DNA from: Vulcanimicrobiota bacterium
Lineage (GTDB): Bacteria; Vulcanimicrobiota; JAJTBE01
NCBI GenBank assembly: GCA_021107945.1
Contig: JAIORV010000099.1
Coordinates: 1 to 64,000 of the forward strand
Direction of reading: 5' to 3'
Length of the DNA stretch: 64,000 bases
Shown in pieces: positions 6,273 to 14,431 of this stretch (position 1 is its first letter; each line of letters begins with the position of its first letter). The notes under the pieces were generated by a model. That model saw only the letters and a program-made list of their open reading frames with translations. It was not told where the DNA came from and did no database searches. The translations under genes and the position numbers were made by a program.

Positions 6273-9200
6273 TTACCACCATTTTTTCTTTCTGCTTTCC
6301 GCCCTTAAAAGTTCAAGTTCGGCGCGGTCTTTTTCTCTCTGGATTCTTTCCAGGGCGAGGGAGTCGATAAGCTCTTTCTTTTCCGTTTCATATTTTTGAA
6401 TAATTTCGTATTTATCCCGTTTTTCTTTATCCAGGGAATCCCGGAGTTCCACTTTTTCCCTGTAACATTCTTCCAGAAGGCGATCTTTTTCCATCATAGC
6501 AGCTTGCATCTGGTCATATTTCTTGGTATCAACCCCACCCCTGACCGGAACCGTCCTCAGTTGGTTTACCATGTCAATATTTTCTCGTCTTAATTTATCA
6601 TTGACTTTCTTCAACCGGGCATTCTCGATGTTTGCTTTTTCCTGCACCATGGCATCCATTTCGGGAGCAGGACCTTCTCCTTTAGAGTGAATTGTTTGAA
6701 TCATTATTGCCAGTTGCTCTATTCTCTCGGAAAGCCTGTCCTGATCCGTCCTTGCGTCTTCCATAAACCGGACGATATCCTGAATCTGGCTATCCTCTCC
6801 GGATGTCGAATATCCCTGGCTGAATATCTCGTGCATTTCCTGGAAGCTTTGAACAAGTTGTTGTTCCAATCCCCTTGTTTCTTCTATTTTTCTGGCAAAT
6901 AATTTTTGTATTTTGTCCGATTCTTCAGTCCGTCCGTGCTCCTGATAGATTGTCTTGAGAGCTTTATAAAGAGTATCAATTTTTCCGTCGAGTGTTTCAA
7001 GAACTTTTCTCTGCTCATCCACATTCTTCTTAACTGTTGCCTCAACTCTTGAAATTGCATCAATTGTCTGTCCCGGATTGCTTAAAAATTTCTTCATCTC
7101 TTCAAATTTTTTGCCCATAAACTTGGGGTCCTGAAGCTTTATGTTATCCTTTACAGTTTCAAGATCCGTCTTCAATTCATTCAAGTACTCAAATGTATCT
7201 TCAAGTGCTTCCCTTATGGCGGGCAGGAAGTTTTCCATATCTTGAAGCGAGGCCGCTTTCTGAACTTTCCCGGAGATATCATCAAGCTTTTCCATGATAT
7301 TCTGTGACATATCCCGGTTCATGTTTTCGAGAGATTTCTGTGCATTATGATGACTCTCAACGATCTCACCAAGCTTATCCGCCACAATTTTTTCTATAAG
7401 TGGAAGCATGGAATTGAGCTCATCCGCAATGGGTTCCTGCCCCTTTGCTTTTGAAATTGAATCCAGTTTTTCAATAAGGCTTTTTTGTGTTTTGAGGTTG
7501 AGTGAAAGAAGTGACTCCTGATTGTCCTTGATCTCACTCAATTTTTCTCCCATAATATAATCAACTGTGCCCACAAGTGAATCTGAATCAATTTTCACTT
7601 CCATCACTGAAAGATGCTGAGAAACCAGTTCTTTTATCTTGGATAAAAGCTGTTTTTGCAGGTTTACATTAAGGTTTACCAGTATTTTATGTGCCCCATC
7701 GAGATCCTGTTTAAAATTGGACATCTTGCTCTCGATCATGGATTCAAGAACCGGAAGAAGCTCACCCGCGCTACCTGCCGAGGAAATATTGCCTCTGAGA
7801 GTCTGAATCTGTTTCAACTCCTCAAGCAATTCCTTGTGATTTTTCATTTCCAGCTTGAGAAGGGCCAGTTGGTTCTCCTTGAGAATCTCATTACCCTCAA
7901 CAATAACCTCTCCGATTGATGAAATCATAGATTCCGGGTCAATAACGCTCCTGATGCTCGAGAGTGCGGCCTGTAATTGATCGACTTTATCTTCAACAGC
8001 GTTTCTTGTCGATTCATTAATCTCCGCCAAAATCTTGATGGAAGAATCCCGGTCTTTTTTAAATTCACTCAGAGATTCCTCAATTTTTTCGACAACAATA
8101 TCAGTCTGTAGATTCTTCTTCATATCCCTCAGAATTACAATCAGGTTATCGATTGATTGGACTATACTTTTCCCGGGTTCCACCTGTCCCACAAGTGCTG
8201 TCATGACATCCTGATATTTTCCGGTGATTTCATTAACAGCCTGGCTGGATAGGTCAACGTTATTCAATCTCTCCATCATCAATTTTTGATTGTTCATGTT
8301 GAGACTGGTGATAACTTTCTGCGCTGATTCCAGTGAATGCCGAATAGAGCCGGCCTCGGTTTCAATAAGTTTTTGAATGCGACCGAGCTTGTCTTTCGTA
8401 GATTTTCCAGATTCAATACGTTTTATCTGTGTTTTCAATTCATCCAGGGATCGAAGTTTAACATCCAGGAGATCTGAAACCGATGGAACAACATTTTCAA
8501 TCATGCTGAATTGACTCTTCACATCCCTGAGCAAATCAAAATTAACATTCATATCGTCAAGTTTTTCTATGATCCACTTCTGAGAGTTAGCACTCATATT
8601 AACCATGATTTTCTGAGCGGCTTCCTGGTTCTGTTTTAAGCTATCACCCTCCTGGCTGACGATATTTCTTATATGAGCCAACATACTCTCCAGCGAGAAT
8701 CGCTCCTGCACGAAATCCATCAGGGATCTGATTTCATCAACTTTCGTCAGAAGTTGTGTCTGTGCCACCCCGTCCAGTGGTTTGCTCTCGCCACTTCCCA
8801 GGGTGGTTTGTATTTCCTGAAGTGTTTGAAGTCTCTCATCAACCAATTGGTTGATATCCGCCATTATCGCCTCGAAAGTCTGCATCTGCTCGGCAATCTC
8901 ATCAATGTTATCCCCCATCTGAACCAATTCATTAAGTCTGTCCAATTGCTCGAGCTTTTCGACAATAGCTTTCTGATTGTTTATATTCAGGTTTACCATT
9001 ATTTTCTGGAAAGAATCCTGACTCTCTTTTAAATTCCCCAGACTCTCATCCAGCGTCTCTTGAAATGCGCCAAGGAACATGCGAAAATCAAATTTATCCT
9101 GGAAATTGTCAAGAACTTCCTGTATTTTGCCAAGCCTCTCATCGACTTCCCCTGTTTTCGATGGAGCTTGCTCTCCAATTTTTTCAACACTCTTGAAGGT

Positions 9201-10613
9201 GATATCATGAACTATAGTTATCGCTTTATCAACTGCAGAGAATCGTTCTTCGATAATGTCAGCAAATTCCGGAAATGTATTTTCAATAGTCTGTAATCTA
9301 TCCGTTATATCCCTGAAAGTCTCATCGGGAACCTTTACCCTTTCAAGTTTTTCCACAATCGCTTTCTGCTGTCTCCCGGAAAGTTTGACAAAAATCTGCT
9401 CGAGAGCCCGTCTTGTCTCCTTGAACTTTTCATCAATACTGGAGAGCATTTCCGCGTTGTCTGACTTATCCAGGAAATCCCGAAGCTTGCCAATCTGCTC
9501 TACCAGGTTCTCTTGCCCCTCGGTTGTGAAGCTTGCCTTGAGATTATCTATGGCGGAGTTAATTTTGGATATATCGGTAAGTTTTTCCTCAATTATTTCC
9601 CTGAGGTCGGGAATAGATTCTTTTAAATCCCTTACATAATCACTTGTTCTAACACTTGTTTCTTTGAGATCATTGTAATTATCCATCAGTGATTTCTGGA
9701 GATTGACATTCAGGTCAATCATAATTTTTTTCGCTTTTTTCTGACCCTCAATCAACTCACCCAGAGCATTTAGAACAGCTTTCCCATTTCCGTCCCCACT
9801 CTTGAGATCACCCTTGATTGTATCAATTCTATCCAGAATTTCATTAACATCAGCCCTGTCTTTTGACAATGTATCTAATTTACTGTCTATGGTGTCTCCA
9901 AGATATGAAATGAAAGCTTCCAGCCGGGATTTTATCTCGTCAGTGGGATTGAGAATTTTCAACTCCTCAAGAGATTCCAGTATTTCATCCTCCCTGTCAG
10001 TTAACTTTTTCTCCAGGGAGTCAATCATTTCAATGATATCATCTTGTCTGCGGAGTTTATCATCCAGGACATCAGACAAGGATAATGTGATTGCCTTTAT
10101 ATCATTCAGGCCAAGAGACCTTGGACCCACTTCCCCATTTCCTCCGGCAGGAATTTCGAGCTCTGAGATCGCTTTTTTCAGAGCTGAATCCAGAATTTTG
10201 CTAAGCCTGTCAAAAGCGGCCCTACTTAAATCAATTTCAGCAACAGCAAGAACCGAATCACGAAGTTCGTCAATCCTTTCCATAACAAAACGCGAAGTCT
10301 TTTCCTGATTTGTTATGTCAGCCTTGTGTTGATCATCTATTCTTTTGGCGAGATCCCCAAACTTAATCCTAAGATAATCAGAAATATAATTAATATATTC
10401 CTTGTCATCAAGCAAGGTATATGGAGGCTCTGATTTCCCAGGCACAGGACGAATTAGTTCAACCTTAATCCTGATTAATGAGTCCTCGTCAATAAGATAT
10501 TCATCTTTTACAATATCAAAAGATATTTTTCCCTCGGCAACAATATCTTCCAGGTACGATTGATCGATACCCAGAAATTTAGCTGCCTCCTGGAGGGAAT
10601 ACTTCTTTCCCAT
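6273..10613 (-). CDS. Giant coiled-coil repeat protein with excisionase-type HTH N-terminus
   Basis: A 1446-residue cytoplasmic protein I do not recognise as a named family. Residues 4-55 fit a MerR/excisionase-type helix-turn-helix (YSLQEAAKFLGIDQSYLEDI, then a wing ending YLIDEDSL). Nearly all the rest is predicted helix and coiled coil. A motif of the form NLNxNxQKxxxEKL recurs at least ten times, near residues 297, 406, 538, 669, 767, 860, 918, 977, 1034 and 1094. The last five are 57-60 residues apart; earlier ones are 93-132 apart. Residues 1315-1440 form an uninterrupted charged coiled coil, ending KKKWW. The ATG has AGGTGAT upstream, and a sigma-70-like promoter lies at 10767-10795. 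A DNA-tethered structural or scaffolding role is a guess. Confidence 0.85.
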   Translation of the reverse strand: MGKKYSLQEAAKFLGIDQSYLEDIVAEGKISFDIVKDEYLIDEDSLIRIKVELIRPVPGKSEPPYTLLDDKEYINYISDYLRIKFGDLAKRIDDQHKADITNQEKTSRFVMERIDELRDSVLAVAEIDLSRAAFDRLSKILDSALKKAISELEIPAGGNGEVGPRSLGLNDIKAITLSLSDVLDDKLRRQDDIIEMIDSLEKKLTDREDEILESLEELKILNPTDEIKSRLEAFISYLGDTIDSKLDTLSKDRADVNEILDRIDTIKGDLKSGDGNGKAVLNALGELIEGQKKAKKIMIDLNVNLQKSLMDNYNDLKETSVRTSDYVRDLKESIPDLREIIEEKLTDISKINSAIDNLKASFTTEGQENLVEQIGKLRDFLDKSDNAEMLSSIDEKFKETRRALEQIFVKLSGRQQKAIVEKLERVKVPDETFRDITDRLQTIENTFPEFADIIEERFSAVDKAITIVHDITFKSVEKIGEQAPSKTGEVDERLGKIQEVLDNFQDKFDFRMFLGAFQETLDESLGNLKESQDSFQKIMVNLNINNQKAIVEKLEQLDRLNELVQMGDNIDEIAEQMQTFEAIMADINQLVDERLQTLQEIQTTLGSGESKPLDGVAQTQLLTKVDEIRSLMDFVQERFSLESMLAHIRNIVSQEGDSLKQNQEAAQKIMVNMSANSQKWIIEKLDDMNVNFDLLRDVKSQFSMIENVVPSVSDLLDVKLRSLDELKTQIKRIESGKSTKDKLGRIQKLIETEAGSIRHSLESAQKVITSLNMNNQKLMMERLNNVDLSSQAVNEITGKYQDVMTALVGQVEPGKSIVQSIDNLIVILRDMKKNLQTDIVVEKIEESLSEFKKDRDSSIKILAEINESTRNAVEDKVDQLQAALSSIRSVIDPESMISSIGEVIVEGNEILKENQLALLKLEMKNHKELLEELKQIQTLRGNISSAGSAGELLPVLESMIESKMSNFKQDLDGAHKILVNLNVNLQKQLLSKIKELVSQHLSVMEVKIDSDSLVGTVDYIMGEKLSEIKDNQESLLSLNLKTQKSLIEKLDSISKAKGQEPIADELNSMLPLIEKIVADKLGEIVESHHNAQKSLENMNRDMSQNIMEKLDDISGKVQKAASLQDMENFLPAIREALEDTFEYLNELKTDLETVKDNIKLQDPKFMGKKFEEMKKFLSNPGQTIDAISRVEATVKKNVDEQRKVLETLDGKIDTLYKALKTIYQEHGRTEESDKIQKLFARKIEETRGLEQQLVQSFQEMHEIFSQGYSTSGEDSQIQDIVRFMEDARTDQDRLSERIEQLAIMIQTIHSKGEGPAPEMDAMVQEKANIENARLKKVNDKLRRENIDMVNQLRTVPVRGGVDTKKYDQMQAAMMEKDRLLEECYREKVELRDSLDKEKRDKYEIIQKYETEKKELIDSLALERIQREKDRAELELLRAESRKKKWW

Positions 10614-11708: not shown

Positions 11709-12944
11709 ATGTTGTATCTGAGTTCAATCCTGGACAGTCCCATAAAAAACGAAATCGGCACACGTATTGGCAAGGTCAGTGATATGATGATAGAGCCCGA
11801 GAAGGATTTCCCACCTGTCATCTATATCCTGATGACCTCCAGCGGAAAAACGAGCATGATTTCCTGGAGTAAGGTCAAACATATTGATAGCGAGGGAATC
11901 ATTCTTCTTAGTACCGAAGAGCAGATTAAGGATTTCAAAATTTCCGGGGAATGGATATATCTCAGGCGAGATGTGCTTGACAAGCAAATAGTTGATATGG
12001 ATGACCACCGTGTCGTGCGGGTGAATGATATTCAACTTAACAGGGTCGGTAACGATATACGGGTAGCAGGTGTTGATGTAGGAACGCCGGGTCTGTTAAG
12101 ACGCATGGGACTTTTGCAAATCGGGGAAATAATCTCACAAGTTTTGAAGCTCAAAACCCCAATGAATATCATTCCATGGGATATGGTTAATACACTCGGC
12201 AGGGGGCAGACTTCCTCTCTAAAGCTCTCCACGAACCAACAGGAAATGACAAAGCTCCACCCGGCCGACCTTGCCGATATTCTTGAAGATTTATCAGGCT
12301 CCGACAGGCGGCAGCTTTTCGACGCGCTCGATACGGAAACAGCGGCGGAGGCACTTGAGCAAATGGAGGAAGACATTCAGATTGCGTTATTCAAGGGGCT
12401 TAGTGATGAAAAGGCGGCGGATTTACTGGAAGAAATGAGTCATGACGAGGCGGCGGATCTACTGCAGGATCTCCCGGAAGAAAGAGCAAATGCGCTCCTG
12501 GGGTTGATGGATAAGGAAGAAGCGGAAGATGTTAAGGAGTTGCTGATTTACGAAGAAGATACTGCCGGAGGGCTTATGAACAATGAATTTGTATCGTCCA
12601 CTCCCAACAAAACATGTGCCGATACAATCAACCTGATCAGGGAACTTTCTCCGGAGGCTGAGCTGGTTTATTATATATATGTAGTTGAAGATGATGAAAA
12701 ATTCATCGGTGTATTATCTCTGCGGGATCTAATTGTTGCAAGCCCGTCAACAATACTGAAGGACATTATGCATACAACGCTCATCTCGGTCCCGCTGAAT
12801 GCCAATATTGCACAGGTTACGGAATCGATCGAAAAATACGATCTTCTTGCGGTTCCTGCTGTTGACGAAAAATTCAGGATTAAAGGGATCGTAACGGTGG
12901 ATGATGTCATGGAGCATATTCTGCCCCGATCCGGATCAAAATAA
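11709..12944 (+). CDS. Soluble PRC-barrel / MgtE-N / CBS-pair protein
   Basis: A 411-residue protein combining the cytosolic half of the MgtE magnesium channel with barrel domains. Residues 1-80 are a PRC-barrel (LSSILDSPIKNEIGTRIGKV), and residues 95-160 look like a second one. Residues 190-285 match the MgtE N-terminal superhelix, with repeated units such as HPADLADILEDL and DEAADLLQDLPEE. Residues 290-405 hold two CBS domains, the second ending GIVTVDDVMEHI. The transmembrane channel domain of MgtE (about 130 residues) is absent. In MgtE these domains sense Mg2+ and gate the pore; here they may sense Mg2+ or nucleotides for another partner. Such architectures occur in several bacterial groups. 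No strong ribosome binding site precedes the ATG. Confidence 0.85.
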   Translation: MLYLSSILDSPIKNEIGTRIGKVSDMMIEPEKDFPPVIYILMTSSGKTSMISWSKVKHIDSEGIILLSTEEQIKDFKISGEWIYLRRDVLDKQIVDMDDHRVVRVNDIQLNRVGNDIRVAGVDVGTPGLLRRMGLLQIGEIISQVLKLKTPMNIIPWDMVNTLGRGQTSSLKLSTNQQEMTKLHPADLADILEDLSGSDRRQLFDALDTETAAEALEQMEEDIQIALFKGLSDEKAADLLEEMSHDEAADLLQDLPEERANALLGLMDKEEAEDVKELLIYEEDTAGGLMNNEFVSSTPNKTCADTINLIRELSPEAELVYYIYVVEDDEKFIGVLSLRDLIVASPSTILKDIMHTTLISVPLNANIAQVTESIEKYDLLAVPAVDEKFRIKGIVTVDDVMEHILPRSGSK

Positions 12945-13180: not shown

Positions 13181-13804
13181 CTACTTTTCCTTCTCTTCCT
13201 CGTCGATTTTTCTTGCCTTCGTTATAATTCTATCGTGAAGTCCGTCCATATTTCGAAGGGCGGTCTCTACCATACCCAAACCTTCAGTGGCAGGAGAAAT
13301 ATCATTATCTCCATTATATTCCATCATCCTGAGACACCCGTCATAGAACTCACGATAATATAAAGCTGTATCTTCCGCAATTACCCTGATCTCGTCCGAC
13401 ATAGTTGAAAGTTGTTTTTTTACCATGTCGGTCTGGAAAATCTCAACTCCGTTTTTCGCTGTATTAAGTACCATCGAAACGTATTTCTTGTAATCCTGGT
13501 ATGTTACCTCACCGGTTTTCAAAGCGTCAACCGTATCTTGTAAAAGAAGAAGGTTTTCTGATTCTTCCAACGGCACTTTTTCAAAACCACTTTCAACTTC
13601 CTCGGCTCCACTGCCTACTCCCACTTCTTGTAGAAGTGAAATTGAAGGCTCTTCCTCGCGTTCCTCCTCGAGGGCAGCTCCACAAAACTCACACTCAAGA
13701 ACACCACTTGGATTTACTTCCGAGCATTCGGGACATTTCTTGCCTATTGCATTCATCAAGCCCTGAAGTGCTGTCAATTCAGGGGGGCATTGTTCATTCA
13801 TCAT
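13181..13804 (-). CDS. Zinc-ribbon protein, 207 residues
   Basis: I do not recognise the whole protein. Residues 24-41 form a zinc ribbon, CPEC-x10-CEFC (Cys24, Cys27, Cys38, Cys41). A Glu-rich linker follows and residues 75-200 are helical (DTVDALKTGEVTYQDYKKYV and onward), possibly a helical bundle. No signal peptide or membrane segment. The start is one of two consecutive ATGs with GGGAGG 5-8 bases upstream. A 14-bp hairpin sits directly before that ribosome site. The gene follows the glycine-rich mini-protein at 13917-14123 on the same strand, so the two may share a transcript. Confidence 0.7.
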   Translation of the reverse strand: MMNEQCPPELTALQGLMNAIGKKCPECSEVNPSGVLECEFCGAALEEEREEEPSISLLQEVGVGSGAEEVESGFEKVPLEESENLLLLQDTVDALKTGEVTYQDYKKYVSMVLNTAKNGVEIFQTDMVKKQLSTMSDEIRVIAEDTALYYREFYDGCLRMMEYNGDNDISPATEGLGMVETALRNMDGLHDRIITKARKIDEEEKEK

Positions 13805-13822
13805 TATTTCCTCCCGAAAATA

Positions 13823-13855
13823 TTTTCACCGGTATTACTTCAATACCGGTGAAAA
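13823..13855 (-). promoter_or_regulatory. 14-bp perfect hairpin before the zinc-ribbon gene
   Basis: TTTTCACCGGTATT and its exact complement flank a 5-base loop. On the minus strand it lies after the glycine-rich ORF and a few bases before the ribosome binding site of the zinc-ribbon gene. Without a long T-run it is a weak terminator candidate; it could cap or stabilise transcripts, or limit read-through between the two genes. Confidence 0.55.
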
Positions 13856-13916: not shown

Positions 13917-14123
13917 TTATTGGGCTCCACAAGCTCCACCAGCTCCACCAGATCCCTGAGCGGCTTGTAAAAGTTTTGCAAGCATCTTCAGAAGACCCTT
14001 TTCTCCTCCCTGTCCGCCACATCCGCCAGCTCCTCCAGCTTGACCTGTTTCGCCGCCACCTAAAAGTCCTCCGATTGCCTCTTTGGCGATTCCGCCGCCA
14101 GCTATTGCTCCTATCGCTCCCAT
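13917..14123 (-). CDS. Glycine-rich mini-protein, 68 residues
   Basis: The ATG has AAGGAG at an 8-base gap, so I believe this tiny gene. About 40% of residues are glycine. The N-terminus (MGAIGAIAGGGIAKEAIGGLL) is hydrophobic and glycine-zipper-like, a GGAGG-CGGQGG stretch follows, then an amphipathic helix (KGLLKMLAKLLQAAQ), then a Gly/Ala tail with a second Cys. No classical signal peptide. It resembles small pore-forming or double-glycine peptides in composition, but no maturation or immunity genes are nearby. Function unknown; the zinc-ribbon gene follows on the same strand. Confidence 0.6.
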   Translation of the reverse strand: MGAIGAIAGGGIAKEAIGGLLGGGETGQAGGAGGCGGQGGEKGLLKMLAKLLQAAQGSGGAGGACGAQ

Positions 14124-14431
14124 TTTGACATCTCCTTCACAATTTTTTTCCTTGCCTTATTATTACATAAATCACAAAGTTAATAAATAGGTTAATCATT
14201 AAATATTTATTAACTATGTTAACGTTTTGTAAAACATGTTGCATTAAAGTTAACAAATCGGCAATTTTGGATTTGATGTGGATTTTTTAAAGCATAGCAT
14301 TCCATTTAAGAACGAGGATTATTTCCTGTCGGGAGAAAGAAGTATGGAAAGGATCATTAATATATTCACGAGAGTATAGAAAAGCCTGACAGCATCAAGG
14401 CATCAGGAAATCAAGCAAAGGAGGTTACATT
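14124..14431. other. AT-rich divergent intergenic region
   Basis: No gene. It lies between the divergent glycine-rich and LamG lipoprotein genes and must hold both promoters. Two GTTAAC sites occur at about 14219 and 14257. A minus-strand TTTACA with a TAAATA 18 bases further is a weak promoter candidate for the glycine-rich gene. Confidence 0.4.

Follow-up and report, generated by a model that had tools for sequence, protein, structure and literature searches.

The gene described here lies on the minus strand of a 64,000-nucleotide stretch of DNA from a Vulcanimicrobiota bacterium (positions 1 to 64,000 of contig JAIORV010000099.1, assembly GCA_021107945.1; the whole stretch is hereafter called the window). 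It is a small open reading frame (ORF) that encodes a glycine-rich protein of 68 residues and is followed by the gene of an acidic zinc-ribbon protein, the partner. This overlooked frame very probably represents a genuine gene. As judged from the comparison of gene neighbourhoods, it belongs to a previously unnamed pair, small protein plus partner, found repeatedly within one branch of this uncultured phylum. The two products, a small, glycine-rich, helix-forming protein and a cytosolic partner that combines a zinc ribbon with an acidic helical bundle, are tentatively read as a client and its chaperone; the chance of this reading is put a little below even.

Conservation of the gene pair among relatives

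The comparison covers 27 loci with short partners (160–207 amino acids), namely 21 loci found by BLAST and six, without a zinc ribbon, out of 20 fetched loci, themselves a selection from a longer list of profile matches. The other 14 fetched loci were left out (ten ORFs of 324–854 amino acids, L074–L081, L090 and L092; a contig-edge fragment, L084; and three zinc-ribbon proteins of about 170 amino acids, L087, L088 and L093), and none of the 14 has a small glycine-rich ORF directly upstream. In 24 of the 27 loci, the focal one included, a small ORF of 43–89 amino acids adjoins the partner gene: it stands directly upstream in 22, upstream of a GNAT acetyltransferase gene in L026 and downstream in L035. 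The three loci without it are L025 (a paralogue in the focal genome), L027 (at a contig edge) and L037. At L025 (contig C2) the expected position of the small gene, upstream of the partner paralogue, is taken by what looks by eye like a subtilisin-type protease-like protein.

Glycine accounts for at least 20% of the residues in 16 of the 24 small ORFs. Both the small ORFs and their start codons were first chosen by eye; an automatic rule (Shine-Dalgarno sequence, 35–115 amino acids, glycine at least 20%, within 350 nucleotides, little gene overlap) picked out a small ORF before 10 of the 27 partner genes; of the 274 remaining genes of these loci it picked one (Fisher p = 6e-11, for loci that are not independent), and this single control match is the family member of L035. 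The gene family and its conserved pairing are regarded as established.

Five groups of small ORFs could be aligned, and in all 18 pairs the ratio of non-synonymous to synonymous substitution (dN/dS) lies between 0.08 and 0.50, with the third codon position changed most. This pattern identifies the alignable small ORFs as coding genes, which by this measure are under purifying selection. In addition, the distances among small proteins, partners and GNATs are correlated (r 0.83–0.94; 0.84 for small protein versus partner), and in 17 loci of six related genomes the correlation between small protein and partner is 0.91, a value as high being found in 0 of 5000 within-genome permutations, so that the genes of a cassette are passed on together as a matched set.

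Searches starting from the small proteins returned, with a first alignment, its own six seed loci only and, with a second, its five seeds and one orphan duplicate without a partner, which shows only that recognisable copies elsewhere are rare. This orphan is a duplicate of the histidine-rich small protein in genome G044 (L152, 1483–1752) and lies about 15 kb from a complete cassette, with no partner gene recognised beside it.

The 68-residue protein

A preliminary description, made from the letters of the DNA, had pointed to a frame of 68 residues with about 40% glycine and two cysteines, preceded by a strong ribosome site and followed by a zinc-ribbon gene. On the minus strand, which it left unstated, all of this was recovered: glycine is 26 of the 68 residues (38%), two cysteines are present, AAGGAG stands 8 nucleotides before the ATG, and the partner gene runs from 13804 to 13181. 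Its central proposal, a real small gene that is easily overlooked, codes for an amphipathic helix and is paired to a zinc-ribbon gene, is likewise supported by the present analysis. The proposed zipper-like N-terminus is weak, as GxxxG spacings do occur but are expected at this glycine content.

Among the 341 ORFs of 40–115 amino acids in the window, the focal ORF is the sole one with at least 30% glycine, and just one other has at least 20%. Its glycine codons are GGA (15), GGC (6) and GGT (5), with GGG absent. The synonymous codon score of the focal ORF is 0.037 per codon, compared with medians of 0.047 for genes and –0.006 for wrong frames (75th percentile 0.031). As proof of coding, codon-usage scoring was rejected as not decisive: for this ORF the choice among synonymous codons fails to tell a coding from a non-coding frame, and the coding case for it therefore rests on its relatives.

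No family is matched by the small protein in Pfam (E 0.1), NCBIfam (0.001), PHROGs (0.01) or PADLOC (0.01). The role suggested in the preliminary description, a membrane-active peptide or a structural protein, found no support in its surroundings or sequence: a signal or leader sequence was not seen on inspection by eye, and no exporter gene was recognised nearby, either by eye among the ORFs of 8–22 kb or among the Pfam matches of five scanned neighbours. Two candidate assignments were discarded: by eye, the protein does not fit the double-glycine leader consensus, and it ends in GACGAQ, without the GGQ/GGE C-terminus of Pup-like proteins. At gathering score, Rfam has no match between 12900 and 14500. 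Promoter-like sites around the pair are uninformative, since 5 were counted versus 2.9 ± 1.8 in shuffles.

The amphipathic helix is borne out by its hydrophobic moment, which for the best 14 residues of KGLLKMLAKLLQAAQ is 0.58, a value reached by 0.1% of within-helix shuffles and by 0 of 400 whole-peptide shuffles. AlphaFold2, run on the single focal sequence, predicts a helix at residues 42–56, with block means of 75 and 66. A second, weak helix is placed at residues 13–21, the remainder being of low confidence (mean score, pLDDT, 57). In the family, 8 of 24 small proteins fall below 5% for the helix statistic under whole-peptide shuffling, so that the focal protein and some of its relatives, but not all, have a clear amphipathic helix. 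The small proteins are diverse (glycine 13–42%), some with lysine runs, histidine runs or cysteine-rich tails, and many combine a short hydrophobic N-terminus, a flexible glycine-rich part and a helix-capable stretch.

The partner and its longer relatives

All 27 short partners are acidic, with a median isoelectric point (pI) of 4.33 and a maximum of 5.49. The AlphaFold2 model of the focal partner has a mean pLDDT of 73. Its profile gives only three weak local matches to solved structures (E 0.002–0.003), and the protein matches no curated Pfam or NCBIfam family above cut-off and nothing in PADLOC or PHROGs. A BLAST search of 58 genomes of the phylum located relatives in 10, counting the focal one, at 21 loci that include the focal locus and one paralogue. 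When a profile was built from 18 members, the domain was detected in 30 of 149 genomes, none of them from families f9, f14 and f16, which supply 117 of the 149. No relative was found in plasmids, and none in viral contigs by a single-protein query, which detects close relatives only.

The domain occurs also in longer proteins, mostly of 430–620 amino acids and three of them in the focal genome, and it builds long repeat proteins. A count over the window plus ten further stretches of the focal genome (including those around the long partners) gave four ORFs with at least 15% glycine among 372 of at least 90 amino acids; two of the four adjoin two of the three long partners, the others being an arginine/glycine-repeat ORF and a 206-amino-acid ORF. 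One of these two neighbours is a glycine-zipper and glycine/methionine-repeat protein with a weak match to DUF1521 (E 7e-4, below the Pfam cut-off); the other, cut by a contig end, carries GGKGND-type repeats. Over the longer and approximately 170-residue partners, a glycine-rich neighbour was recognised by eye at 7 of 13 loci, and weak DUF1521 matches, again below cut-off, in 2 of 9 scanned neighbours of longer partners. DUF1521 proteins are type III-secreted and calcium-responsive, according to PMC6506597. Taken together, the glycine-rich neighbours and the secretion of DUF1521 proteins suggest that members of the partner family bind glycine-rich, possibly exported clients. The resemblance to the DUF1521 (MIIA) proteins NopE and VIC_001052 is confined to the two larger neighbours with their sub-threshold matches, whereas the focal small protein has no DUF1521 domain.

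Large glycine-zipper or glycine/methionine-rich proteins with no Pfam match above cut-off were seen beside or near zinc-ribbon proteins of the partner family at L140 (6095–7249), L139 (2–1111), L080 (2992–4225) and L093 (5790–6731).

The intergenic hairpin

Between the two focal genes the mRNA is predicted to fold strongly (z –5.8 / –4.25), and a terminator-like hairpin is found there; the pattern scan alone gives 2 terminator-like sites in the region versus 1.1 ± 1.3 in shuffles. Strong folding of this gap is established as a property of the family: over 21 loci the median z is –3.1 (12 below –3) versus –0.2 (3 below –3) for 33 control gaps, each separating two other genes on one strand (p = 8e-7). 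The test took 21 of the 24 loci, leaving out L026 and L035, with their other gene order, and L085, and five of the partner starts are approximate. In several loci the stem is followed by a run of T and then immediately by the ribosome site of the partner. This layout suggests a high output of the small protein and a lower output of the partner.

The GNAT acetyltransferase

In 21 of the 27 loci a tandem GNAT acetyltransferase gene is found near the pair (within 1.8 kb in 20), and all six of the GNATs scanned match Pfam Acetyltransf_1. A resemblance to GNAT-modified peptides and the RimI-type N-terminal acetyltransferases lies in this proximity and in residue 2 of the small protein, which is Ala, Gly or Ser in 17 of 24. 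The differences are that the focal locus has no GNAT and that RimI resemblance is weak, being found in one of the six GNATs scanned and far below the curated cut-off.

Features and other genes of the window

The coordinates of the pair and of its elements are listed in Table 1. Two other genes of the window were looked at. A 411-residue protein (11709–12944, plus strand) has PRC-barrel, MgtE_N and CBS domains and no MgtE transporter domain among its Pfam matches, and a 1446-residue protein (6273–10613, minus strand) is mostly helical by sequence, with a weak helix-turn-helix match at its N-terminus.

Table 1. Elements of the small-protein and partner gene pair (window coordinates).
Feature	Position	Strand	Remarks
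Ribosome-binding site AAGGAG	14132..14137	minus	8 nt 5' of the small-gene ATG
Small glycine-rich protein gene, 68 amino acids	13917..14123	minus	ATG start (14123) to TAA stop; small ORF beside partner in 24/27 loci, focal included
Amphipathic helix KGLLKMLAKLLQAAQ (residues 42–56)	13956..14000	minus	hydrophobic moment, AlphaFold2
Terminator-like hairpin between the two genes	13823..13855	minus	15 pairs, then TATTTTC
Ribosome-binding site GGGAGG of the partner gene	13810..13815	minus	
Partner gene, zinc ribbon and helical bundle, 207 amino acids, acidic (pI 4.31)	13181..13804	minus	downstream of small gene
Partner zinc ribbon CPEC...CEFC	13682..13735	minus	two CxxC in 14/27 partners
Partner helical-bundle domain (residues 83–206)	13187..13558	minus	AlphaFold2, block means 62–95; also in longer same-genome proteins

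A proposed client and its chaperone

In the mechanism that we propose, the partner would most likely bind the small protein and keep it soluble in the manner of a dedicated chaperone, until export or arrival of the small protein at a membrane. Most transcripts would stop at the hairpin, downstream of the small gene, leaving the small protein in excess, while the partner would be made by read-through past it; in the relatives the tandem GNAT would probably acylate one of the two proteins. Secretion chaperones are often acidic. The chaperone reading gains support from the larger glycine-rich proteins that neighbour the longer partners; membrane activity of the small protein is possible.

Several observations weigh against this interpretation. 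The remaining 8 of the 24 small ORFs have just 13–17% glycine, and the second short partner copy of the focal genome, at L025, has no glycine-rich small ORF beside it. Conservation among relatives, by which the preliminary description proposed to judge the frame, speaks in its favour at the level of the gene pair but not of the frame itself: a direct search (E <= 0.01) found no orthologue of the 68-residue protein in the other 57 of 58 genomes, so that selection on the focal ORF is deduced from relatives which share its position and composition, not alignable sequence. When nearest neighbours are compared, small protein and partner give the same answer in just 7 of 17 loci, and linkage alone could explain the correlated distances. 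The opposite net charge of small protein and partner is a trend only (Spearman –0.39, p = 0.06). In structure comparison the best matches of the partner model are generic helical bundles with Z <= 9.3, in the range commonly seen for bundles. Finally, the GNAT is absent from the focal locus, and the two GNAT homologues of the genome are located elsewhere.

Alternative explanations

It is also conceivable, though we consider it unlikely, that the small protein acts on membranes as bacteriocins or modulins do, leaving the cell so that its glycine-rich segment and helix disturb the membranes of other cells, with partner and GNAT serving for self-protection. An amphipathic helix is indeed present, the peptides are glycine-rich, often cationic and diverse in sequence, and several different pairs per genome occur in one genome group; moreover, the Cdz bacteriocins of Caulobacter (CdzC/CdzD), as described in PMC5380434, are small glycine-zipper proteins encoded together with accessory genes. 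However, neither an exporter nor a leader nor a gene for a small membrane immunity protein was recognised beside the focal ORF, selection is purifying and not diversifying, the acidic partner has a domain that also builds long repeat proteins, and no partner relative turned up in plasmids or, for close relatives, viral contigs. The same points set the focal pair apart from Cdz: in the neighbourhood inspected above, type I secretion genes were not recognised, and in place of a small transmembrane immunity protein the adjacent gene encodes the acidic partner with its zinc ribbon and helical bundle. As to the extended GxxxGxxxG segment of Cdz, the focal protein has GxxxG spacings, which are expected at 38% glycine.

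Similarly improbable in our estimate is an intracellular scaffold or regulator, in which both proteins would form a stable cytosolic complex, for example in metal or RNA binding, with no export. The zinc ribbon of the partner, the histidine runs or cysteine clusters of several relatives and the lack of signal sequences by eye are consistent with it, but the pairing persists although 13 of the 27 partners have no zinc ribbon and many small proteins no His/Cys, and some glycine-rich neighbours of longer partners weakly match a domain of secreted proteins.

Pairs of a type III-kind secretion chaperone and its substrate are known in which an acidic helical partner is encoded next to a small or aggregation-prone product, and the focal pair resembles them in this arrangement. 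That it is itself such a pair, serving a type III secretion apparatus, is nonetheless quite doubtful. The idea was raised by the weak DUF1521 matches and the FlhA copies, four partner-domain genes lying 5–10 kb from an FlhA/SctV gene, and it agrees with the acidic, helical partner. It is weakened by the contexts of the two full-length FlhA/SctV copies in the focal genome, both of which look flagellar by eye, while the proximity to FlhA elsewhere may be simple synteny. Injectisome genes were looked for and none was recognised in the loci read, including near the focal pair, which differs further in the zinc ribbon of its partner and in having only weak structure matches. None of the six FHIPEP matches of the focal genome falls on the contig of the focal pair. 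Four proteins of the focal genome (C24:19918, C165:828, C44:34987 and C76:21998; L130–L133) match the C-terminal part only of the FlhA/SctV export-gate family, and many FHIPEP matches are found also in several other genomes with the partner family.

A spurious ORF, its glycine-richness the by-product of another sequence constraint, is highly improbable. The indecisive codon statistics and the search without an orthologue would fit it, but against it stand the ribosome site, the composition unique in the window, and the small ORFs that occupy the same position in relatives and are clearly under selection.

Implications

From one odd ORF the analysis has arrived at a well-delimited cassette of genes that recurs in a phylum with hardly any cultured members. 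No published description of such a cassette is among the matches listed in the literature on Xenobia/Eremiobacterota, Xenobiaceae, glycine-zipper bacteriocins, DUF1521 and type III secretion in Eremiobacterota, and a literature search aimed at this set of genes gave no paper. More speculatively, and with a low probability in our judgement, the cassettes could be part of a lineage-wide export or surface-assembly system in a branch of the Eremiobacterota, in which acidic zinc-ribbon and helical-bundle chaperones, from forms of 200 amino acids to repeat forms of 600, would each serve their own glycine-rich, aggregation-prone client, from peptides of 43 amino acids to glycine-zipper proteins with calcium-binding-like domains, the tandem GNAT acylating the small clients and the terminator between client and chaperone setting their ratio. 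The client-and-chaperone reading of the cassette yields a clear prediction, namely that the partner binds the small protein and that the small protein is in excess. If the glycine-rich neighbours of the long partners are indeed clients, the family would represent unrecognised chaperones, together with a set of unannotated, perhaps exported proteins.
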